From the NCBI GenBank assembly GCA_949285255.1, contig CASDXV010000007.1:1-36255 (forward strand): a stretch of DNA of 36,255 nt, read 5' to 3'. Position 1 is the stretch's first letter. The number at the start of each line of letters is the position of its first letter. The translations under genes and the position numbers were made by a program. This DNA is from an uncultured bacterium (GTDB lineage: Bacteria; Cyanobacteriota; Vampirovibrionia; Gastranaerophilales; Gastranaerophilaceae). The notes below the pieces were generated by a model, which was not told where the DNA came from, searched no databases, and saw only the letters and a program-made list of their open reading frames with translations. Shown piece after piece: positions 2,695 through 29,413 of the stretch.

Positions 2695-3021
2695 TTATCG
2701 TCCTCCGTAGGACATTTGAATATTTGAATCAATTGAAGAGTTAACGCTTTGTATTTCACTTTCAATCATCTTGAGTTGAACCTGATACCTTTGTGCTTGC
2801 TCTTCAAGTCTTTGTTCAACCACCTTTAAGCGTTCCTGTCGTTTCTGCAACGCCTTAGCTTCAGCAGACTCAGGGTCAAGGTCAGTACCCAACGTTTCAA
2901 GGTCACCTGTTGAAGCAGTAAGCTGCAAACGCGAAGAGTTTATCAACATAAGCTTGTATTCAAGGTCAAGCCTCATGCTGTTTAGTTGAATTAATCTGAT
3001 TGTAGATACAATTAAACCCAT
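2695..3021 (-). CDS. Small coiled-coil protein, short member of an axial-like family
   Basis: Function unknown. The 108-aa product has no signal peptide. Residues 1-38 align without gaps to the start of the 341-aa protein encoded at 4379-5404, with ten identities including M1-G2, Ser6, Arg9, Leu13, Glu21-Tyr22, Asn28, Arg31 and Leu34. Residues about 55-100 are a charged coiled coil rich in Glu, Gln, Arg and Lys. It therefore looks like the minimal form of the longer protein, with N- and C-terminal helices and no middle domain. Its ATG follows the stop of the upstream 89-aa gene by one base with only a weak ribosome site, which suggests translational coupling. It is the last gene of the minus-strand cluster before the leuS terminator. 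Confidence 0.7.
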   Translation of the reverse strand: MGLIVSTIRLIQLNSMRLDLEYKLMLINSSRLQLTASTGDLETLGTDLDPESAEAKALQKRQERLKVVEQRLEEQAQRYQVQLKMIESEIQSVNSSIDSNIQMSYGGR

Positions 3022-3022
3022 T

Positions 3023-3292
3023 TTATCTCATTTCGTTGAACTTATTTCCCCTTAGGAAAACGTGCTCGTTGTTTTGTGCAATAAGTTTTTCCATTTGATT
3101 CAGCTTGTAGATTTGGTAATTCAGTCTGTATTTTACCATTTTTCTTTTCTTGTTCATTGAAAAGAAATTCTTTAGCATCGATACAAATTCTTTAGAAAGT
3201 AGCTTAAATGGATTTTTTCTGATTAAAAAACTTTTTGAAAATCCAAGAAAGTTTCTCATCCTTTTTAAATTTGTTTGGATACTTTGTTGCAC
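3023..3292 (-). CDS. Basic small protein, unknown function
   Basis: I do not recognise this 89-aa product. It is strongly basic (many Lys and Arg), predicted mostly helical, and has no signal peptide or clear membrane segment. The start is a GTG preceded by a very good AAGGAG seven bases upstream (minus strand, about 3300-3306), which supports a real gene. It is followed one base later by the 108-aa coiled-coil gene, so the two are almost certainly cotranscribed and perhaps act together, for example as a chaperone or partner; that role is only a guess. Confidence 0.65.
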   Translation of the reverse strand: MQQSIQTNLKRMRNFLGFSKSFLIRKNPFKLLSKEFVSMLKNFFSMNKKRKMVKYRLNYQIYKLNQMEKLIAQNNEHVFLRGNKFNEMR

Positions 3293-3306
3293 GAGCTTAC
3301 TCCTTT

Positions 3307-3324
3307 TTTAGGGGTAACCCTAAA
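3307..3324. other. Small hairpin in the leader of the 89-aa gene
   Basis: TTTAGGG (3307-3313) and CCCTAAA (3318-3324) form a 7-bp stem with a 4-base loop immediately upstream of the ribosome site of the gene ending at 3292. On the minus strand it is not followed by a T run, so it is probably a leader structure. The rest of the gap to 3481 is AT-rich and shows no clear gene. Confidence 0.4.
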
Positions 3325-3481
3325 CTTATAAAAACATAACTCGAGATAAAATTGCCTAAGAATAATTATCCTCACTGAATTTAAAAGAAATAAATATCCT
3401 TAAAAACCAACCTATATCTATATTTTATAACGACATAAGTCAGTAGAAACTTTATTTTTGAAATATAAATTTTACAAAAGT

Positions 3482-4303
3482 TTACAAATCTTGTACCAGT
3501 TTCTGATCGGATTCAATATCGTTTTTAAGAGTTTTTCTAACAATATCCGCCTGCGTATCAAGCATTTTGCAAACAGTTTCTATGTTTTTAACCCTATCAG
3601 ATAAAATAACATCAGCGTTAGATGTAATTCTGCCAGTTACATTCTGATAAGCACTAACAGCAGCGTTACCTGTACCTTGCATTAAGTTACCTGCGACAAT
3701 CGCACCAAGACCCCATTCGCCCATATATGGCGACATTGCCTGCAATAAACCGCCCCAGCCTGATATCATGCCGGCCAGAGGAAGTACAATATTTTGCCCA
3801 AAACTAAAACCGCCTGATGCAGTTCCTAGTGCCGCAGTCGCTGTATTCATAGCGGCAATACCTGCTGAGCTTACCGCATAACCCGTGGCTAATCCCGCAG
3901 CACCGCCTGTTGGCGTACCTTCAGAGCCAAATCCAAGAGTAATTCCTGCTGCACCTGAGGGAAAGCCGGGGTAAGAACCAAGGTTGCCTATACCAAAGGC
4001 TGAAGTTGCACCATCATAAGATGCGGTTGAACCTGTTATCGGTGACCAGTAGGAAGTTCCCGGTATATTCATCATATTACTGCCGCCCATTACGGGCATA
4101 AAAATACTGGGTGAAAACATGCTGGCTAATTGCCACAAAAACCCGCCTGCGGTGCCAAAACCGCTGCCGGAAGAAGCAGAGCTTGAAACCGTTAAATCCC
4201 TTAAGCGGTCATAGGTTTCATACAACTCAGCTTTTGCAATAGAGCTTGCCGAGCCATACTTATTTGCTATTGTAAGTGAGTGCATGTTTTTGTAAGAAAC
4301 CAT
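3482..4303 (-). CDS. Gly/Ala/Ser-rich signal-less protein, unknown
   Basis: Not recognised. The 273-aa product starts at ATG 4303 behind a GAGGG-type ribosome site. Residues about 1-45 are a helical head. Residues about 45-225 are very rich in Gly, Ala, Ser and Thr with hydrophobic stretches (around 50-75 and 165-205). Residues about 225-273 form a charged helix. There is no N-terminal signal peptide. A polar helical head, hydrophobic Gly/Ala-rich centre and helical tail resemble secreted pore-former or translocator layouts, but no homology is claimed. It sits between the two coiled-coil genes of the same strand. A structural or surface protein is equally possible. Confidence 0.6.
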   Translation of the reverse strand: MVSYKNMHSLTIANKYGSASSIAKAELYETYDRLRDLTVSSSASSGSGFGTAGGFLWQLASMFSPSIFMPVMGGSNMMNIPGTSYWSPITGSTASYDGATSAFGIGNLGSYPGFPSGAAGITLGFGSEGTPTGGAAGLATGYAVSSAGIAAMNTATAALGTASGGFSFGQNIVLPLAGMISGWGGLLQAMSPYMGEWGLGAIVAGNLMQGTGNAAVSAYQNVTGRITSNADVILSDRVKNIETVCKMLDTQADIVRKTLKNDIESDQKLVQDL

Positions 4304-4335
4304 TAATACTAACCCTCGTGTATTTTTTAATTATT

Positions 4336-4363
4336 GCACCATGCCAAACTTTTGACATGGTGC
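4336..4363. terminator. Intercistronic hairpin, possible weak terminator
   Basis: GCACCATG (4336-4343) pairs with CATGGTGC (4356-4363). On the minus strand the stem is followed by A-rich rather than T-rich sequence, so it is at best a partial terminator or an mRNA-stabilising stem between the 341-aa and 273-aa genes. Confidence 0.45.
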
Positions 4364-4378
4364 ATATTGCTGATTTTA

Positions 4379-5404
4379 CTAAGCGAATGTCTTAAATGTT
4401 GATTCGACGTTCTTTTGGATAACTTCTTTAACCGCATCCATTTCGGTTTTAAGAGCTTCTTGTTCTGTATCAAGTTGTTTTAGTCTTAATTCTAGAGTTC
4501 TGTCTTGTTGTTGGATAATTTCTGTTCTTGCGTTGATATCTTGAATAGCTCTTTCATAAACCATTTTTTGGTATTCATAGTCTTTCATGGCTGCTTCATA
4601 GCCTTCAGAATCGTTTACTTGAGTTAAATCAAGTTCAAAAGATTTACCTGCAAGTTTAGCGTTTAAGTCTTCATTATCAACATTTGTAATTTTTACTGAT
4701 TCAAATCTGCCATCTGTTGTTGTGTCAAATGAAGCTGTGGCATTTGCAGTCTTTTTAACCGTAGCATCAGCTGCAAAGTATTGAGTTAAACCGCCTGTGT
4801 ACATCTCTGATGGGTCATCAGGCAAGGTAGCATTTGCTATATCATATGATGAGATATAATATGTTCTCTCGCCTGTTTCACCTTTATTTACCGTATATTT
4901 GTAGTATGTATCATCTTGCGGACGTCTTGTAGCATCATTGCTTATAATTGCCGAGTTTATTATTTCGATATTACCTTTATCAATACCTGTAGCGTCAGCA
5001 GGAGTTATTTCATACTCTTTGCCGTCAATGTATATTTTTTGAGGAGTTTGATTATCAAACTGCATAGGAGTACCTTGGGTAATAGGGCTTGAAGAATAAC
5101 CTTTACGTTCTACTTCAGAGTATTCAATAACAATGTTATAAGCTCCTGCAGCACCACCTGTTGCAGTATCATATTTTGTAATTGAGAAATCTTCACCCAT
5201 TGAATCAAATACGTAACGAGTGTTATAGTAATCAGTTGCACTCGGCGGAGTAGGAACTTGCAGAGTTAACATCTGGTTAAACAAACCTGCGCTTTCATTT
5301 GCAAGCACTGTTCTTTGTTGGTTAACTTGTTGTCCTTCATATTCAACGTTGGTTTTTCTTGCCGTAAGACCTAAAAATCTTGCTTGGCTTGCTGCCATTC
5401 CCAT
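4379..5404 (-). CDS. Signal-less coiled-coil protein, long member of an axial-like family
   Basis: Function unknown. The 341-aa product starts at ATG 5404 with GGAGG 11 bases upstream. Three parts are visible. Residues 1-50 are an N-terminal helical motif (MGMAASQAR, then EYEGQQVNQQR) that recurs in the 108-aa protein at 2695-3021. Residues about 60-265 are a Thr/Asp/Tyr-rich, probably beta-rich, middle domain. Residues about 275-341 are a long charged coiled coil. No signal peptide is present. Terminal helices flanking a variable globular domain resemble the general plan of flagellar and type III axial proteins, which are exported without a cleaved signal; this is an analogy, not a detected homology. 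It is the first gene of the cluster that ends at 2695. Confidence 0.7.
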   Translation of the reverse strand: MGMAASQARFLGLTARKTNVEYEGQQVNQQRTVLANESAGLFNQMLTLQVPTPPSATDYYNTRYVFDSMGEDFSITKYDTATGGAAGAYNIVIEYSEVERKGYSSSPITQGTPMQFDNQTPQKIYIDGKEYEITPADATGIDKGNIEIINSAIISNDATRRPQDDTYYKYTVNKGETGERTYYISSYDIANATLPDDPSEMYTGGLTQYFAADATVKKTANATASFDTTTDGRFESVKITNVDNEDLNAKLAGKSFELDLTQVNDSEGYEAAMKDYEYQKMVYERAIQDINARTEIIQQQDRTLELRLKQLDTEQEALKTEMDAVKEVIQKNVESTFKTFA

Positions 5405-5550
5405 TGTTTTCTATGCCTCCATTGTTCTTATGTTAGTAATATCGGCATATCTGTTTTTCAACTTTAATTTTTGAATATTTTTGTTACATTTTCTTAACAT
5501 TTAATCAAAAACCAATAGCAAATAACCACACATTATCGACCTTATACAAG

Positions 5551-9584: not shown

Positions 9585-10205
9585 CTAAAACGGCTTAGCA
9601 AGAGCTTTAATGCCTTCAAACTCATATAGGAGCTTGGTTTTCTTACCATCGGCAATATGAGTTGCAAACATGGCGCAAACTATTGCTTCAAGAGAAGATG
9701 CGGCGAGCATATTATCAGGAAGCTCGTCAAATCCGTATTTTAGCTTAAGCGAATTTTGCAAACTCTTACAATCAGGAGAAGTCCTTGCAAGATAGTGCGC
9801 ACTTAGTCCATAAGCCTGTCTTAGCTGGTTAATGTCACATCTATATACCTCTAAACCCTCCTCTTTGATGTTAAGTAACACATCACACAACCTATTAGAG
9901 AGCCTTTTTGTCCATTTTTGCCTGTTAATTTTAAAATAGTCGCCAAGCATTTTATAATTTTTTGAATGTATTCTCCATTTACCTTCAAGCAAGGAGTTAT
10001 CATAAGGCACGGAAACACAGATAATTGAGTTGTGGATATATGGTGATGTATTTAAAAAAAGCTCGATATCCTGAGCAAAATAAAACTTGTCCAAAAGCAA
10101 AATTTTTGAATTTCTGTCTAAAACACAAACGGAACTGTCGTAGTTAGAAGAGTTTGACAACGACAAACCGATGAAGAAATTTTGTTTTCTTGACTTTTCA
10201 ACCAT
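9585..10205 (-). CDS. DUF429-like RNase H-fold protein, possibly inactive
   Basis: The 206-aa product resembles DUF429 proteins, predicted nucleases of RNase H fold: an N-terminal strand (FIGLSLSN), a second strand pair (SVCVLDRNSKI), and a C-terminal helix with DNMLAASSLEAIVCAMFA. In typical members the first strand carries an acidic residue (GID pattern); here that position reads GLSLS, so a catalytic Asp may be missing. The assignment is by pattern only. The ATG at 10205 has no Shine-Dalgarno and lies directly after a very good promoter, so the mRNA should be leaderless. It shares a compact bidirectional promoter with the ABC exporter. Confidence 0.6.
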   Translation of the reverse strand: MVEKSRKQNFFIGLSLSNSSNYDSSVCVLDRNSKILLLDKFYFAQDIELFLNTSPYIHNSIICVSVPYDNSLLEGKWRIHSKNYKMLGDYFKINRQKWTKRLSNRLCDVLLNIKEEGLEVYRCDINQLRQAYGLSAHYLARTSPDCKSLQNSLKLKYGFDELPDNMLAASSLEAIVCAMFATHIADGKKTKLLYEFEGIKALAKPF

Positions 10206-10244
10206 ATTTAAGAGTATAATTAACTATAATCATTTTTTCAAGGA
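10190..10244. promoter_or_regulatory. Symmetric bidirectional promoter
   Basis: Minus strand: TTGAAA (10241-10236), exactly 17 bases, TATACT (10218-10213), then +1 next to the ATG at 10205. Plus strand: TATAAT at 10215-10220 overlaps the minus -10 by four bases; a TTGACT at 10190-10195 with a 19-base spacer is a possible -35. A second TATAAT is at 10225-10230. AAGGA at 10240-10244 is the ribosome site of the exporter and overlaps the minus -35. Confidence 0.65.
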
Positions 10245-10249
10245 AAATT

Positions 10250-12025
10250 TTGTCCTTTATGTTTATTTCGGTTTTTATAGATTTTATAAACACTTTTGCA
10301 AGAGAATTCAGATTTAGGCTGGCTTTTCTCTTGTTGTTATCTTTAATAGCCGCAGGATTTGAGTTTTTAGGCCTTTCGCTTATCTACACTTTTGCAATCT
10401 TGCTTAGCAAAAATGAAATATCTATATCTATCTTAAACGCACTGAATATCCAAAATAGCCCCAAAATTCTGCTTTTGCTGGGCATTTTGGTTGCTTTTAC
10501 ATACATTTTTAAAGACATATTTATGATTTTATACATAAAATTCCAAAACGGACTTATTGCAAGAATTACAAACAAGATTTTTGAAAAAAACTATAAACTT
10601 TTCATTGGTCAGAATTATCTGCTTACAAGAAAAATCTCAAAATCAGACAAACAAAGAATTTTAGGCGAATCAATAAACATAATAATGAACGATTTTGTGG
10701 GTGCGGTACTATCTCTTATAGTAAATCTTATCGTTGCTTTTGGTATAATTCTTTACCTTTTTGTAAAATTTAAAACAACAGCAGTTATTATCTCTGTTTT
10801 TATTTTTGTCATTTGGTTTTTAGAGAGCAAATATTTTAAAACCCAAGCAAAAAAATACGGTGAAGCACTGAATATTACAGACAGAGAAAAACAAAACTTT
10901 ACCCTTGCCACAGTTGATTCTCAAAAAGAAGTAATAATTTATAACAAAAAAGACGATTTTTCAGATGTTGCAAACAAAATACAAAAACAATACACAAAAT
11001 GCAGATGCAATATGAGCACTAATAGGGCAATGCCTATGTATTTCACAGAAATCGGCGTTATGAGCACTTTTGTCTTGTTTGTTATTTTGCAGTTATTAAA
11101 AAACCCTGACGGCGCCGTCCTTGGTGCAGGGCTTGCAGCAATTGCAGCGGTAATTTTAAGAATCGTACCTACAATAAACAAAACTCAAAACTGTCTATAT
11201 GGCATAAACAGCTCAAAATACGAAGCTCAGTGGTTTTTAAACACTATAAAATCACTAAATATTAAAACCCCTCAAGCTGAAAAAAATAGCACCCCTCTTG
11301 ATTTTAAAGATAAAATAGCTTTTTTGGGGGTAAATTTTTGCTACGAAGACAATAAAGAAGTGCTAAAAGATATCAATTTTGAGATAAAAAAAGGCGAATT
11401 TGTAGGCATTACAGGGTTATCAGGCAGTGGAAAAACTACTCTTTTCAACCTTATATGCGGACTTTTAGAGCCTTGTAGCGGTGAAATTACAATTGACAAT
11501 GTAAAACTTGATAATACTAACGCTAAAATATGGCAAAATAACATAAGCATTCTCTCGCAAGAATTTTCACTCCCATTTAATACCATATGGCAAAATGTGG
11601 TACTTGAGCCTGATGAAAATAAAATAAAAAACTACAACTTTGAAAAAATAATACTTGCCCTTAAAAATGCAGGATTGAAAGAAGAAATATACTCTGACCT
11701 TCAAAAAAACCCATCCGACCTCTCTTGCGGTCAAAAACACAGAGTTGCGCTATCTCGAACATTTTACTTTGAAAGAAACATAATAATGCTCGATGAAGCA
11801 ACGGCGGCTCTTGATGTTGAAGCGGAAAACGAAATAAACAAAACACTTGAGCAAATTAAAGGAACTAAAACAATAATAGCAATAGCTCACAGGATAAAAA
11901 CCCTTAAAGACTGTGACAAGCTTATTTATATTGATGGGGGCAAAATAGTTGACACAGGCACTCTTGAATGCCTTTGCAAAAAACATCCGCCCTTTAAGCA
12001 CTTGGTTGATTTGTCAAAATTTTAA
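10250..12025 (+). CDS. ABC exporter (fused membrane and ATPase domains), PglK/MsbA-like
   Basis: A 591-aa half-transporter that would dimerise in the inner membrane and export a lipid, glycolipid or similar substrate. Residues 1 to about 330 contain about six hydrophobic segments. The ATPase domain has Walker A GLSGSGKTT (about 388-396), signature LSCGQ (about 491-495, with Cys where most have Gly), Walker B IIMLDEA (about 508-514), and the H-loop AIAHR. Overall style resembles PglK-type oligosaccharide flippases, but no glycan cluster is adjacent, so the substrate is open. The start is TTG at 10250, chosen because AAGGA lies five bases upstream; ATG 10259 would be 14 bases away. Confidence 0.9.
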   Translation: MSFMFISVFIDFINTFAREFRFRLAFLLLLSLIAAGFEFLGLSLIYTFAILLSKNEISISILNALNIQNSPKILLLLGILVAFTYIFKDIFMILYIKFQNGLIARITNKIFEKNYKLFIGQNYLLTRKISKSDKQRILGESINIIMNDFVGAVLSLIVNLIVAFGIILYLFVKFKTTAVIISVFIFVIWFLESKYFKTQAKKYGEALNITDREKQNFTLATVDSQKEVIIYNKKDDFSDVANKIQKQYTKCRCNMSTNRAMPMYFTEIGVMSTFVLFVILQLLKNPDGAVLGAGLAAIAAVILRIVPTINKTQNCLYGINSSKYEAQWFLNTIKSLNIKTPQAEKNSTPLDFKDKIAFLGVNFCYEDNKEVLKDINFEIKKGEFVGITGLSGSGKTTLFNLICGLLEPCSGEITIDNVKLDNTNAKIWQNNISILSQEFSLPFNTIWQNVVLEPDENKIKNYNFEKIILALKNAGLKEEIYSDLQKNPSDLSCGQKHRVALSRTFYFERNIIMLDEATAALDVEAENEINKTLEQIKGTKTIIAIAHRIKTLKDCDKLIYIDGGKIVDTGTLECLCKKHPPFKHLVDLSKF

Positions 12026-12028
12026 AAA

Positions 12029-12056
12029 GACCCCTTTTGGATATCAAAAAGGGGTC
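12029..12056. terminator. Terminator between the ABC exporter and the 80-aa gene
   Basis: GACCCCTTTTG (12029-12039) pairs with CAAAAAGGGGTC (12045-12056). On the minus strand it is followed by TTTTT, so it mainly ends the 80-aa gene. It can also act on the exporter transcript. Confidence 0.75.
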
Positions 12057-12072
12057 AAAATGAGCAGAAGGA

Positions 12073-12315
12073 TTATTTTTTAGAAAAGCATTGCCTTGCG
12101 ACAGAAAATAATTTAACAAAAGATTCGATAAAAGCTATCAAACTTTCGACAAGGGCTTTTTCCTCCTCTTCTTCCACTCCTTTTATGTCTATCAGCTCAA
12201 GTAGAAAATTGTAAATAAAAGTTTTTTTGTTCTTTGTTTTAGCATACTCAGCAAGTGTACCTGCAAGATTTGCCATTTTTGAGAAAACATCTTTAATTAC
12301 TTCACTCTTTGCCAT
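12073..12315 (-). CDS. Small helical protein, unknown function
   Basis: The 80-aa product is not recognised. It is predicted helical, with an acidic run (GVEEEEEK) in the middle and a hydrophobic C-terminal helix (ESLIAFIESFVKLF) ending in Lys-Lys. No signal peptide is seen. A near-consensus AAGGAGG lies about six bases before the ATG and a strong terminator follows the stop, so it is very probably expressed as a single gene. The C-terminal hydrophobic helix could allow peripheral membrane binding or dimerisation. Confidence 0.7.
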   Translation of the reverse strand: MAKSEVIKDVFSKMANLAGTLAEYAKTKNKKTFIYNFLLELIDIKGVEEEEEKALVESLIAFIESFVKLFSVARQCFSKK

Positions 12316-12401
12316 TTATACCTCCTTCAACTTGTTACAGAATGATTTTATCCGCATTTTTGGTTGAAAATTTTTTTTAGGTGACAGGTAAAACCAAATA
12401 T

Positions 12402-12441
12402 TTAACAAAAATGTAAAATTTGTGTTACAATTCATACAAAG
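12402..12441 (+). promoter_or_regulatory. Promoter of the small membrane protein gene
   Basis: TTAACA (12402-12407) and TACAAT (12426-12431) are separated by 18 bases. The leader would be about ten bases and includes AAAGG. The remaining sequence from 12316 shows nothing further. Confidence 0.45.
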
Positions 12442-12447
12442 GTAGTT

Positions 12448-12720
12448 ATGGAAAAAAATAAAGACAACGCTTTTTTTTGGATAGGAACGCTATTTTTAGT
12501 CGCAGCGCTTCTTGTTTTGACCTTTTTACCAAAGATAATTTTTGACTTTATACCGTTTTTTTATATAGAAATTAACAAATTCAGAAGTATAGGTTTAGCA
12601 CTGTTTTTAATTGTGCTGGCTTTTTATTTTATGAGCAAAAATACATACAAAAAGCAGCTTTTGGCGGCTGCTTTAGGGTTTTTATATTACTTTGTTTTTA
12701 TTAACTTTTTTGCAGACTAA
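12448..12720 (+). CDS. Small integral membrane protein, unknown
   Basis: A 90-aa product with about three hydrophobic segments (roughly residues 9-28, 46-62 and 68-87) separated by short basic loops. The family is not recognised. AAAGG lies a few bases upstream of the ATG and a plausible promoter precedes it. Its TAA stop overlaps the TAG stop of the convergent outer-membrane factor gene inside a shared CTAA, and no terminator separates the two, so the pair should produce overlapping antisense 3' ends. Confidence 0.7.
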   Translation: MEKNKDNAFFWIGTLFLVAALLVLTFLPKIIFDFIPFFYIEINKFRSIGLALFLIVLAFYFMSKNTYKKQLLAAALGFLYYFVFINFFAD

Positions 12721-23511: not shown

Positions 23512-23560
23512 ATCCTATTGTTACAAAATGTAAAATTAAAACAAAAAAATATAAAGTTTT

Positions 23561-23599
23561 AAACTGAGCGTGACGAATAACAATTTGTACGCTCAGTTT
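23561..23599 (+). terminator. Terminator after the PilZ operon
   Basis: AAACTGAGCGT (23561-23571) pairs with ACGCTCAGTTT (23589-23599): an 11-bp stem with a 17-base loop and a short T run. It separates the operon from the 741-aa gene. Confidence 0.6.
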
Positions 23600-23653: not shown

Positions 23654-25879
23654 ATGGGAACAGATTTAAACTCAAACATCTTAGGGGTGAAAAAGGCAAG
23701 CGAGTTAACTAACGTAACAGGCAACTTGAATAGTATTTATTCAAAATCCAGAACAGAACAACAAGAAGCCTTGTCGCAGTTATTTAAGCAAAAGTATTTT
23801 AACTCAACAACTCAAAAAGCTACAATCAATAATCAAATCGAAACTCTTGAAGAAAAAATTAAAGAATTTGACGATAAAATAAAAGAACTTGAAGAGCAAA
23901 TTGCAGATAAGCAAGATGAACTTGATAAATTAAAAACTCAAATTGCAGATAAAGTTGCAAAAATAGTAGCAGACACAGAAGAATATGAAGCAACTTCAAA
24001 AAGAAGAGTTGACCAAGCAATAGATAACGCTCTTTATCATTATGAAAGTGACAGTCACTCAAAGAGAAACGGTGGCGAAAAAACTCTTAGCGACTTTATC
24101 ATAGAACAAATGGGCCTAGTAACGGGTCAAATTACAGGCGGCAGAGTTAATATCGATAAAGCTATTGAAGAACTCGGCACACCACAAACAGAACTCAACG
24201 GCATAGTGGGTGAGATGGAAGGTCTTGTTGATGATATAGACGGACTTAACTCACAATATGCTACAACAAAAAGTACTCTTGACCTGTTAAAATTAACCAA
24301 AAACAACATGACAGATGCAGCAGGCAGCTATCAAACATCAGACACTGACCCATCTGTACCTATATTTACTCCTGCAAAAGAAGACTTAGCTGACGGATAT
24401 CTGGCACAGTATACATCTCGTATGGCAAACAGAGAAAACCAAACAAACCTTCCTTCGGTAGCAGATAAACAGGCAGTAATTGACAAGTATAGCGGAAATA
24501 TTGCAGCACAAACCCAAGGTGTAGACCAATACAGCACTAAAAATGCACAATTACTATCGTTCTCTCAAGCGCTGGACAAAGGTCTAATAAAAGATATGCA
24601 AAATGCAGGCTTCTCTAAGAAAGAAATGCTTGACACAATAAAAGAACTTTTCCCATCAACAGGCATTTCTCACGGAGATGACGGCAGACCTGTTATACCT
24701 TGGGGCCATGGTTCAGACGCGCAAGCTATATACAGAAAATTTGAAGATAGCTTTGGCAAAGTCGAAGGAGCAGTTCAAAGAGATGACCTTCAAGTTGCCG
24801 AAATGGACAAAGCAATCAAAAACGACAAAATTGTCACAGAAATGAAGAATAATAACTTCAGCTGGAAAGAAACCGCTTATACTTTGACAAGGCTATGGCC
24901 CGGCGGCGGCATTGGCTACACATTAGGCGAAAAAGAAGTAACTCTGCCTATAGGTGATAAAAACTCAAAAGGTACTTATGACGCCCTTGAAGCAGAAATC
25001 AAGAAAAACTATCCTGATGTTAAAATAAACAGAGGTACGTCTGATGAAACCGTTAAAGATGAAGTAAAACACACTGACCCTGTAGGTTTCCACATTGGCG
25101 ACAATAGCTACGAATTTGCAATAGACAGAAATCAAGACGGTGTATTGAATGACTTCACAGAAATGGTAGGCGCAAATGGCGTAGACGGCATGGAAGAACT
25201 TGCACTGTTTGATACAGACGGCGACGGTCACATCAGTGGTGATGAACTTAAAAATGTTCTTGTACTTAACACCGAACACACAAACCGCGACTACGAATTC
25301 CTAAGCGCAGAACAACTGGGTATCAAAGACATTGACCTAAGCTCATTTACCGAAAAAACTCAATCCAGAGGCGATGGCGTTGAAGGCAGCGAAGACTTCA
25401 TCAACATTAACAACTCATTAATAACAGGAACATTCAACATCACAATGAACGACGGCAAAAATGCCGAAGGTTACCAAAAATTCGTAACCGAAGAGTACAT
25501 GGAAGCAGTATATAACCCGATTTTAGGTGAAAATGTATACTCAGAACTTGACGGCGATACTGTTGATAATGTAATAGACGATAACTTCAAAGATGCAGAC
25601 GATAAACTTGGCAACTTAAATGAATTTGCAGATTTAATTAAAGATGCTAAAGAATATGGCAACATCAAAGCAGCACTTAGAACAAAACTTAACAATGCAC
25701 AAAATGAAGCTTATGGCTACAAAGCTCAACAAACAGCAGAACACATTGACGGCTACAGCGCTGATGCTCCTAAGGTTGACCTTGAAATGTCAATTGATGA
25801 AGCAGATAGAGTAATAAACGAATACCTGGAAGCTGCCGAAAAAGAAAAAGAAGAAGAAGAAAAACAAAAACAAGAATAA
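23654..25879 (+). CDS. Large signal-less coiled-coil protein with EF-hand motifs and an internal repeat
   Basis: Function unknown. The 741-aa acidic product has no signal peptide or membrane segment. Residues about 60-110 are a strong coiled coil (repeated IKELEEQI-type heptads). Residues about 302-367 and 382-450 are two copies of one unit with a shared pattern I-x2-M-x-N-x2-FS-x-KE, an L-x-P-x2-GI step and a later V-x2-P-x-G. Two EF-hand-like calcium loops follow: DRNQDGVLNDF (about 490) and DTDGDGHISGDE (about 520-531). The tail is a Lys/Glu run. AAAGGA lies seven bases before the ATG and a strong terminator follows. It may be a calcium-dependent surface or exported protein, perhaps related in export route to the 2695-5404 cluster; that is inference. 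Confidence 0.75.
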   Translation: MGTDLNSNILGVKKASELTNVTGNLNSIYSKSRTEQQEALSQLFKQKYFNSTTQKATINNQIETLEEKIKEFDDKIKELEEQIADKQDELDKLKTQIADKVAKIVADTEEYEATSKRRVDQAIDNALYHYESDSHSKRNGGEKTLSDFIIEQMGLVTGQITGGRVNIDKAIEELGTPQTELNGIVGEMEGLVDDIDGLNSQYATTKSTLDLLKLTKNNMTDAAGSYQTSDTDPSVPIFTPAKEDLADGYLAQYTSRMANRENQTNLPSVADKQAVIDKYSGNIAAQTQGVDQYSTKNAQLLSFSQALDKGLIKDMQNAGFSKKEMLDTIKELFPSTGISHGDDGRPVIPWGHGSDAQAIYRKFEDSFGKVEGAVQRDDLQVAEMDKAIKNDKIVTEMKNNNFSWKETAYTLTRLWPGGGIGYTLGEKEVTLPIGDKNSKGTYDALEAEIKKNYPDVKINRGTSDETVKDEVKHTDPVGFHIGDNSYEFAIDRNQDGVLNDFTEMVGANGVDGMEELALFDTDGDGHISGDELKNVLVLNTEHTNRDYEFLSAEQLGIKDIDLSSFTEKTQSRGDGVEGSEDFININNSLITGTFNITMNDGKNAEGYQKFVTEEYMEAVYNPILGENVYSELDGDTVDNVIDDNFKDADDKLGNLNEFADLIKDAKEYGNIKAALRTKLNNAQNEAYGYKAQQTAEHIDGYSADAPKVDLEMSIDEADRVINEYLEAAEKEKEEEEKQKQE

Positions 25880-28585: not shown

Positions 28586-29413
28586 ATGACTCAGGAAAAC
28601 ATTGAGGTCGATTCATACAAAAAAATAGTCAGATTATCTGACCAAGAGCTTAAAGCGCTTTGGGAAGAGTATTATGCTGACCGTACGAACAAAGTCGTGC
28701 GTGATAAGTTAATTGTACAGTATATCTACCTTACTCGCTATGTAATAGGGCGTGTTAAGGTGAATTTACCCCCGAGTTTTTCTTACGAAGATATTGCAAG
28801 TTATGGTGTTGAGGGCCTTATAGACGCTATTGAGAAATTTTCCCCAAACAAAGGTGCAAAGTTTGAAACATACGCCCTTATGAGAATAAGAGGTTCTATA
28901 ATAGACAGAATCCGCTCATCAGACTGGCTGCCTCGTACTATAAGAAAGAAAATTAAAGACGTAAAATTAACCGCAGAAAGACTAAAACAAGAACTTGGCA
29001 GGGCTGCTACAACAAAAGAAATAGCAGATGTCATGGGCTTAGAAAAAGAAAAAGTCGAAGAAATTTTAGCCTCAGATACATCTATAGATTCAATTTATGA
29101 TAAAAAAGGTACAGGCGAAGACAGTGTTGAAATTATTGACACAATTGAAGATAAAAACTCAGCACGCCCCGAAGAAGAAGTTGAGAAAAAAGACGCCAAA
29201 AGAGAGCTTGAAGCAGCGCTTAAAAAACTTCCAGAGCGCGAGAGAATGCTGCTTGTGTTCTATTATCATGAAAATATGACCCTAAAAGAAATAGGTGAGG
29301 CGATAAATGTTTCAGAATCTCGCGTTTGCCAGTTGCATGCGCAAGCTATTATGAAATTAAGAAATATTCTAAGCGCTAAACGCTCAGAGAGAATGAACAA
29401 GTCGATTATTTAA
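28586..29413 (+). CDS. Sigma-70 family factor of FliA/WhiG type
   Basis: A 275-aa alternative sigma factor. Region 2 is seen in SYEDIASYGVEGLIDAIEKF and FETYALMRIRGSIIDRIRSSDWLPR (about 68-115); the RSSDWLPR block is typical of FliA/WhiG proteins. Region 3 follows (about 120-155). An acidic linker at about 165-205 leads to region 4 with LPERERMLLVFYYHENMTLKEIG (about 215-237) and a helix-turn-helix to about 265. Length suits the FliA/WhiG/SigB group and is too short for the housekeeping factor. No flagellar gene or anti-sigma factor is adjacent, so the regulon is open. Confidence 0.9.
   Translation: MTQENIEVDSYKKIVRLSDQELKALWEEYYADRTNKVVRDKLIVQYIYLTRYVIGRVKVNLPPSFSYEDIASYGVEGLIDAIEKFSPNKGAKFETYALMRIRGSIIDRIRSSDWLPRTIRKKIKDVKLTAERLKQELGRAATTKEIADVMGLEKEKVEEILASDTSIDSIYDKKGTGEDSVEIIDTIEDKNSARPEEEVEKKDAKRELEAALKKLPERERMLLVFYYHENMTLKEIGEAINVSESRVCQLHAQAIMKLRNILSAKRSERMNKSII

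Follow-up and report, generated by a model that had tools for sequence, protein, structure and literature searches.

A candidate axial-protein family accompanying a putative second flagellar-type export apparatus in Gastranaerophilales

According to sections of Di Rienzi et al. (2013), four genomes of gut Melainabacteria have 13 flagellar genes in common, including two flhA genes, one contig carries the order flgG-flgG-flgC-fliF-fliH-flhA-fliI, and MEL.A1, which is without filament, cap, junction and rings, is read as a case of reduction (PMC3787301). Complete flagella sets in three of nine genomes and a subset in the rest are described in sections of Soo et al. (2014; PMC4040986). Here we report on a 36,255-nt stretch of DNA, hereafter the window, which is contig CASDXV010000007.1 (C7) of a 1.6-Mb draft genome of the order Gastranaerophilales (GCA_949285255.1; 43 contigs; designated G000), and on four genes, P0001, P0004, P0003 and P0002, that follow one another in this order on its minus strand (Table 1). 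P0001 and P0002 are assigned to one protein family, A1, which is apparently undescribed and occurs in Gastranaerophilales and some other lineages of the class Vampirovibrionia. Gastranaerophilales are a sister lineage of Cyanobacteria that does not photosynthesize, and the window most likely comes from a gut-dwelling member of this order. The balance of the evidence leans towards A1 proteins being exported axial, filament-like or tip subunits of a second apparatus with its own FlhA protein (FlhA2), that is, towards a flagellum-derived export system of a known kind with a new candidate axial family.

The operon order reported for gut Melainabacteria (PMC3787301) recurs in the FlhA2 operon of G018, a genome from another family of the order. 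The consulted sections of both papers describe loss or reduction of the flagellum (PMC3787301, PMC4040986), whereas here FlhA1 and FlhA2 form separate clades and FlhA1 alone disappears together with flagellin; the A1 substrate family is unmentioned in those sections. Extracts of a termite-gut genome paper report flagellar and chemotaxis genes, and extracts of Soo et al. (2015) report flagella and a type IV secretion system for Vampirovibrio (identifiers among PMC5877343, PMC4451040 and PMC4914512). An inner-membrane structure was linked to the flagellar type III secretion system (T3SS) in other bacteria, as given in an extract of Kaplan et al. (2022; PMC9380563). Among the titles and abstract openings listed by searches of an open-access library without preprints, none named a second flagellar-type system or the A1 family in these bacteria.

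Passages of Abby and Rocha (2012) describe two cases, the basal bodies of Buchnera and the non-flagellar T3SS (NF-T3SS) of Myxococcales, in which the export apparatus is kept without a filament, the Myxococcus system having earlier been annotated as a relic; they also use flgB, flgC and fliE to mark flagella and mention that flagellar loci have been reused for secretion, as proposed for Buchnera (PMC3459982). The apparatus considered here resembles both cases in the conservation of export components without a filament, but that of G018 has its own FlgB, FlgC and FliE and two FlgF/G-like rod proteins, and the system occurs alongside a flagellum in some members of the order and is accompanied by a new family of candidate substrates. 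The three marker genes named in those passages (PMC3459982) were found with the second apparatus in G018.

Like flagellins and hook-associated proteins (PF00669, FlgK/FlgL), A1 proteins have a hypervariable domain flanked by conserved terminal helices, lack a hydrophobic stretch at the N-terminus, have FliA-type boxes before their genes and occur in multiple copies, and the best Foldseek matches of P0001 are flagellar chains. A1 proteins differ in showing no sequence homology to them (0.1-0.2% hhalign probability against seven flagellins, in comparison alignments that held 3-12 sequences and therefore had limited power) and in being present in all 84 sampled genomes of the order without a flagellin match. 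Type III needle and inner-rod proteins (SctF, SctI/FliE) also differ from A1, the FliE of the second apparatus (FliE2) giving 0.2-0.4% hhalign probability. A likeness of A1 to SctF would presumably lie in the short helical hairpin, the Pro-containing turn and the length of ~80-110 aa.

Homology and predicted architecture of family A1

Over their first 38 residues, P0001 and P0002 align without gaps and with 10 identities, as pointed out in an earlier note on this DNA, whose coordinates, strand and lengths for the 341-aa and 108-aa proteins were also correct. At least 10 identities in 38 were reached in 0.027% of 200,000 shuffles of the P0002 N-terminus (mean 3.4). Against a profile of 61 P0001-type proteins, the N part of P0002 scored 10.1 bits (best of 2,000 shuffles 6.7) and the C part 8.1 bits, with shuffles reaching 12.1, and the direct pairwise link is weak. 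In the profile-profile comparison the C halves alone were aligned (94.5% probability, E 7.6e-8), a match likely affected by coiled-coil bias. The paralogy proposed in that note is secured through a 109-aa protein from outside the order, because this intermediate matches both proteins, P0002 over 105 residues without gaps (E = 4e-21, 38% identity) and the P0001-type N profile with 75.9 bits. On these sequence comparisons, P0001 and P0002 are paralogs of one family, and it follows from the intermediate link that P0002 represents the family in its smallest form, while P0001 carries an additional domain at the turn.

This arrangement is also found in the predicted structures and in the pattern of conservation. 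Mean pairwise identity among the 61 P0001-type sequences is 79% for residues 1-45, 24% (with 38% gaps) for residues 46-260 and 68% for residues 285-341. The AlphaFold2 model of P0001 has a helix at 4-47, a beta-rich region at 60-264 and a helix at 266-340 (pLDDT 79.9, pTM 0.46), in agreement with the beta-rich domain that the earlier note placed between the shared N-terminus and the coiled coil, and P0002 is modelled as a hairpin of helices 3-46 and 53-105 (pLDDT 88.9, pTM 0.72); the models gave no sign of unrelated folds. The predicted core of family A1 is a two-helix protein of ~109 aa, consisting of an N-helix, a short turn and a C-helix, and long members carry a fast-evolving domain placed at the turn, as in flagellins. 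A1 as modelled has the flagellin plan of conserved helical termini around a variable domain. Neither protein has a hydrophobic N-terminal stretch (highest 19-residue hydropathy 0.62 for P0001 and 0.86 for P0002), so that both appear signal-less as judged by hydropathy.

The pairing of the two ends was followed in 80 loci, the best relatives of the window locus in the genome collection, all from metagenome-assembled genomes and, where a source was stated, from animal gut, faeces or rumen. Both ends were present in 121 open reading frames (ORFs), the N end alone in none and the C end alone in two, and the N-terminal motif thus accompanied the C-terminal end as had been anticipated, in loci that were picked by N-terminal patterns and ranked by whole-length similarity, which somewhat biases the set towards paired ends. 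Long members in these loci range from 234 to 549 aa. Outside the order, 26 distinct ORFs in 30 loci have 108-124 aa and both ends, a few further matches lie in longer open frames of up to 226 aa, and the insert-free form is conserved and multi-copy.

In the Foldseek search of P0001 against PDB, rank 1 was a flagellar filament of Azotobacter (E = 2e-4, probability 0.82), the single one of 287 matches at E <= 0.001. Eight of the best nine matches (ranks 1-6, 8 and 9) were flagellar filament, cap or hook-filament junction chains from five different entries, and rank 7 was a herpesvirus glycoprotein. For P0002, the leading matches were coiled coils, among them that of a type III translocator.

Searches of Pfam, NCBIfam, PHROGs and PDB assigned A1 to none of their families and gave nothing but coiled-coil noise, the strongest instance being a designed coiled coil matched by short members. 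P0001 and P0002 had no Flagellin_N (PF00669) match in Pfam at E <= 1 and no Flg_bb_rod, Flg_bbr_C or FliE profile match; the best Pfam match of P0002 (E 0.0023) was below the cut-off, and the best NCBIfam match of P0001 was a phage tail model at E 0.059. Matches of 29 short members were scattered over 80 Pfam families (best 0.00017) and 48 NCBIfam families (best 4.6e-5), and no needle or FliE family was among the 25 of 80 and 25 of 48 listed. The PDB sequence search gave no match for P0001-type proteins, a best E of 0.058 for A1, and a designed coiled coil (E 4.3e-5) and a monopolin subunit (0.0059) for short members. Direct homology to flagellin, FlgB, FlgC, FlgE, FlgG or FliE was not found by hhalign, with comparison alignments of 3-12 sequences.

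P0001-P0004 had no match in PHROGs at E <= 0.01 and P0002 none in plasmids; a phage structural gene as the nature of the window locus was rejected on the absence of PHROG matches and the presence of the family in 127 of 127 genomes. Family members seem to travel in phages or prophages: the IMG/VR contigs L251 and L253 contain 565-aa family ORFs and L248 an N-terminal match, in each case just 3' of a terminase-like gene and a 76-aa protein, and the terminase was confirmed by PHROGs in L248 and L251, contigs that are virus-classified. The single phage-record match of the family was a 109-aa member at 132602-132931 of MW495066.1 (INPHARED 'Microcystis phage MaAM05'; locus L254). Its neighbours are glyS, gatD, secDF, acpS, smc and scpA/B, and this stretch of the record looks like a piece of bacterial chromosome that was entered as a phage.

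A putative second flagellar-type apparatus and its co-occurrence with A1

Three FHIPEP matches were found in 18 of 21 genomes (the window's and 20 relatives), namely FlhA1 with ~880 bits, FlhA2 with ~700 bits and a soluble protein with the FlhA cytosolic domain alone, the last being listed in all 21. In a tree of 45 FlhA sequences, in which long branches were flagged, FlhA1 grouped with E. coli FlhA and FlhA2 formed a separate, fully supported clade. By eye, FlhA1 has FliP-, FliQ-, FliR- and FlhB-like neighbours. The FlhA2 operon of G018 comprises two FlgF/G-like genes, FlgB, FlgC, a transglycosylase-like gene, FliE, FliF, FliH and FliI; Pfam confirmed FliE, FlgC, FlgB, two FlgE/F/G D1 domains, FliF and FliH in this locus (L040), as well as FliI, which carries a T3SS ATPase C-domain. 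FliE was also identified by Pfam in G021. Two genes at the FliG position had no Pfam match. The window's genome has relatives of the rod genes FlgB, FlgC and FliE by BLAST; by Pfam, it encodes FliP, FliQ and FliR a second time, together with a FliM/N domain protein, the transglycosylase and the FHIPEP protein that consists of the soluble half. The core genes found are thus FlhA2, FliF, FliH and FliI in G018 and the second FliP, FliQ and FliR in G000, and by these assignments the inspected genomes carry, together with FlhA2, further genes of a second flagellar-type apparatus. The soluble FHIPEP-half protein was seen at L035 8641-10089 and L039 5888-7369, and in G018 its gene lies, by eye, near FliJ-, FlgD- and FlgE-like genes.

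Flagellin was matched in 43 of 127 sampled genomes of the order and in none of the other 84. FlhA1-type matches (at least 857 bits) occurred, among the matches listed, in 41 genomes, all within the 43 flagellin-bearing ones, and in none of the 84 flagellin-less genomes, 82 of which had a full-length FHIPEP protein of the FlhA2 class, as judged across the 127 genomes from the best E-value per genome. Family A1 was present in 127 of 127, so the profile search with the shared N-terminus, on which the earlier proposal could have failed, did not fail. Up to 21 family matches were listed per genome, counts that are not gene numbers since N and C halves may be separate matches, candidates were limited to 20 (13 in the class-wide survey) and phage-borne copies may be included. 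The motility flagellum as the partner of A1 was rejected because A1 is present in all 84 genomes without a flagellin match.

The association extends across the class. Of 194 genomes, 115 belong to the order and all of these have the family, as do 15 of the 79 others; run on the same 79, the FlhA2 profile scored at least 1010 bits in exactly the 15 family-positive outside genomes; in the other 64 it scored at most 743 bits or nothing, and 22 of these have another FlhA type. The 15 family-positive genomes belong to three families, and their FlhA2 forms one clade with that of the order. Genes of the two systems also lie near each other in some genomes. A P0002-type gene is located ~3 kb from fliE2 in G091 and a P0003-type gene ~5 kb from fliE2 in G021, both flagellin-less, and in both fliE2 is followed by fliF2, a gene at the FliG position, fliH2 and flhA2. 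In eight genomes from four genera (G021, G091, G069, G121, G065, G051, G071 and G049), a listed family match and FlhA2 share a contig and are 8-15 kb apart; in six of them the listed match is the C half alone.

Gene order, sigma-28-type boxes and other features

P0001, P0004, P0003 and P0002 are conserved neighbours, which bears out the earlier mention of a basic 89-aa and a Gly-rich protein beside the pair. G018 has the same four-gene order with one small ORF in between; the flagellin-less G021 keeps the order P0001, P0004, P0003, the fourth gene being expected across the edge of the two stretches examined, and in G091 a P0002-type gene occupies the corresponding position next to the FlhA2 operon. 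In the 80 loci, a P0003-type ORF is directly upstream of all 23 short members, and P0001- and P0004-type ORFs are also found in the loci of all 23; in L199 the short gene is on the opposite strand to the long gene. P0004-type genes directly follow 42 of 96 long members with room for one, and in one family outside the order they adjoin 109-aa members (L222, L230, L244). P0003 has a net charge of +16 and P0004 contains 15% Gly; the C-terminus of P0004 has a weak likeness to the family C-coil (hhalign 13% and 4%).

Promoters recognized by sigma-28 (FliA) have the consensus TAAAGTTT-N(10-13)-GCCGATAA, which was used for scoring. The box before P0001, TAAAGTTG-N12-GCCGATAT, is the sole site in the window scoring 14/16, and 13/16 sites also occur in the window without a gene nearby. 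Boxes of at least 13 were found before 40 of 93 long members, three of them perfect, versus 9 of 458 other ORFs in the collection (Fisher p 2e-26, relatedness ignored), a count that may favour the family since start positions were taken from the N motif in family members but assigned mechanically in the controls. On these sequence scores, sigma-28-type boxes are enriched before long members. None of the 23 short members, which sit inside the gene group, has such a box, and 17 of 32 P0003-type genes have one within 220 bp, a figure without a control of that length. A FliA/WhiG-type factor scored above the cut-off in 126 of the 127 sampled genomes, although no more than 43 of them have a flagellin match.

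Table 1. Features of the window, with positions counted from its first nucleotide
Feature	Position	Strand	Description
P0001	4379..5404	-	341 aa; long family member: N-helix, beta-rich variable domain and long C-helix (predicted)
P0002	2695..3021	-	108 aa; minimal family member, predicted two-helix hairpin
P0003	3023..3292	-	Basic 89-aa protein
P0004	3482..4303	-	Gly/Ala-rich 273-aa protein with hydrophobic middle
Sigma-28 (FliA)-type box	5439..5466	-	14/16 positions; 34 bp upstream of P0001
Weaker sigma-28-type box	3427..3454	-	13/16; 134 bp upstream of P0003
FliA/WhiG-type sigma factor	28586..29413	+	TIGR02479, 238.5 bits (cut-off 189.6); candidate regulator
741-aa coiled-coil protein	23654..25879	+	EF-hand-like stretch below Pfam cut-off
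Sigma-28-type box	23552-23579		13/16; 74 bp upstream of the 741-aa coiled-coil gene

The gene of the 741-aa coiled-coil protein is a possible member of the same regulon as P0001. In L211, a 931-aa protein (9665-12460) has a start that looks like that of the 741-aa protein and a 15/16 sigma-28 box, and the two proteins are possible further substrates. An inverted repeat seen by eye at 4336-4363, between P0001 and P0004, might act as a partial terminator and thereby set their product ratio.

Alternative explanations and meaning

In the reading preferred here, the four genes would be transcribed at least partly from FliA-type promoters, and their products would most likely leave the cell via the FlhA2 apparatus, separate from the motility flagellum. 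The A1 products would then most likely assemble on the FlgB/FlgC/FlgG-like rod as axial, filament-like or tip subunits, the short members as core or adaptor subunits and the long members displaying variable domains, presumably outside the cell. The exported filament or surface assembly suggested in the earlier note is independently supported in part by the conserved termini and variable middle, the sigma-28 boxes, the co-occurrence with FlhA2 and the flagellar fold matches, but the likeness to known axial proteins did not extend to profile comparisons or to superposable folds.

Several observations weigh against the axial reading. Comparison by hhalign with flagellin, FlgB, FlgC, FlgE, FlgG and FliE, in the same small alignments as above, gave at most 0.4% probability, and Pfam and PDB sequence searches showed no axial-protein homology. 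The flagellar superpositions in the top nine are poor (query TM 0.10-0.18, rmsd 21-35 A, in a search without a control model), and the fold matches of P0001 therefore support a similar order of elements rather than a superposable fold; the P0002 hairpin had no fold match at E <= 0.001 and resembled generic coiled coils. Among long members from genomes of known flagellin status, boxes of at least 13 precede one of eight where flagellin is missing and 14 of 28 where it is present; outside the order, 3 of 23 members have such a box. The A1 and FlhA2 operons of the window's genome are on different contigs, C7 and C11, and the second FliPQR set, on another contig, was assigned to FlhA2 by elimination in this one genome. 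The flagellin-less G053 and G130 have no full-length FlhA, yet keep the family; their FHIPEP gap may be due to assembly gaps or recent losses. These two genomes are 99% and 97% complete and have 14 and 12 family matches. The family and FlhA2 may also share one common origin or acquisition, because the 15 positive outside genomes represent three families with one FlhA clade. Finally, 16 FlhA proteins of family-negative genomes form a neighbouring clade to FlhA2, and a related exporter therefore exists without a detectable family member. In family f10 (L119-L124, L129), two FlhA types were seen, one of them in the clade next to FlhA2, and no A1 was detectable; this family may have a related apparatus whose substrates are different or have diverged.

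These points leave room for readings in which A1 is not part of an exported axial structure. The large beta domain, hypervariable between conserved ends, and the up to 21 listed matches per genome fit surface-exposed subunits better than cytoplasmic export helpers, whether chaperones and coiled coils like FliJ, FliT and FlgN or regulators of the apparatus; we regard such helpers as unlikely, though the short members are helical hairpins of ~109 aa, A1 has the same distribution as the apparatus, a structure of YscO (FliJ-like) is among the fold matches of P0002 (rank 25, E 0.74, not significant), and the hhalign probability of 3.2% against a single FliJ-like sequence, also not significant, is higher than those for flagellin or rod proteins. 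Slightly ahead of this, and still improbable on the whole, would be secreted effectors or adhesins, in which the ends serve export and oligomerisation and the middle is released or displayed without a filament. The length range of the long members, and the position of some of them beside terminase genes in virus-classified contigs, like accessory factors, agree with such a function, but all members seen have both ends apart from two C-only ORFs, and outside the order the form without an insert is conserved in multiple copies, which argues for a role of the ends in their own right.

The least probable reading, and one we would give little weight, has A1 as FliA-controlled proteins that are not connected with any type III exporter and form, for instance, a cytoplasmic cytoskeletal or envelope coat out of coiled coils. 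Export of A1 is indeed deduced from its associations, and the association with FlhA2 could reflect one shared ancestry; however, the family coincides exactly with the FlhA2 clade and not with the other FlhA types found in 22 of the 64 family-negative genomes, and in eight genomes its matches lie close to FlhA2, as given above.

Returning to the axial reading, a broader and more tentative proposal, to which we give somewhat less than an even chance, is that Gastranaerophilales have a distinct flagellum-derived surface machine, kept and probably used after the loss of motility, whose outer fibre or tip is formed by a family unrelated by sequence to flagellin, hook, needle or pilin proteins, with diversifying domains that face the gut host or neighbours, and of which phages carry their own copies. 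In published descriptions, flagellin-less gut Gastranaerophilales no longer possess a functional flagellum. If most of them retain a second flagellar-type exporter with a large and variable substrate family of its own, they would carry an unstudied surface machine instead of being bare non-motile fermenters. This would add another case in which the flagellum has been repurposed, one whose candidate subunits can be listed gene by gene. Family A1 would thereby provide a concrete set of proteins to be sought in stool proteomes and cryo-tomograms.

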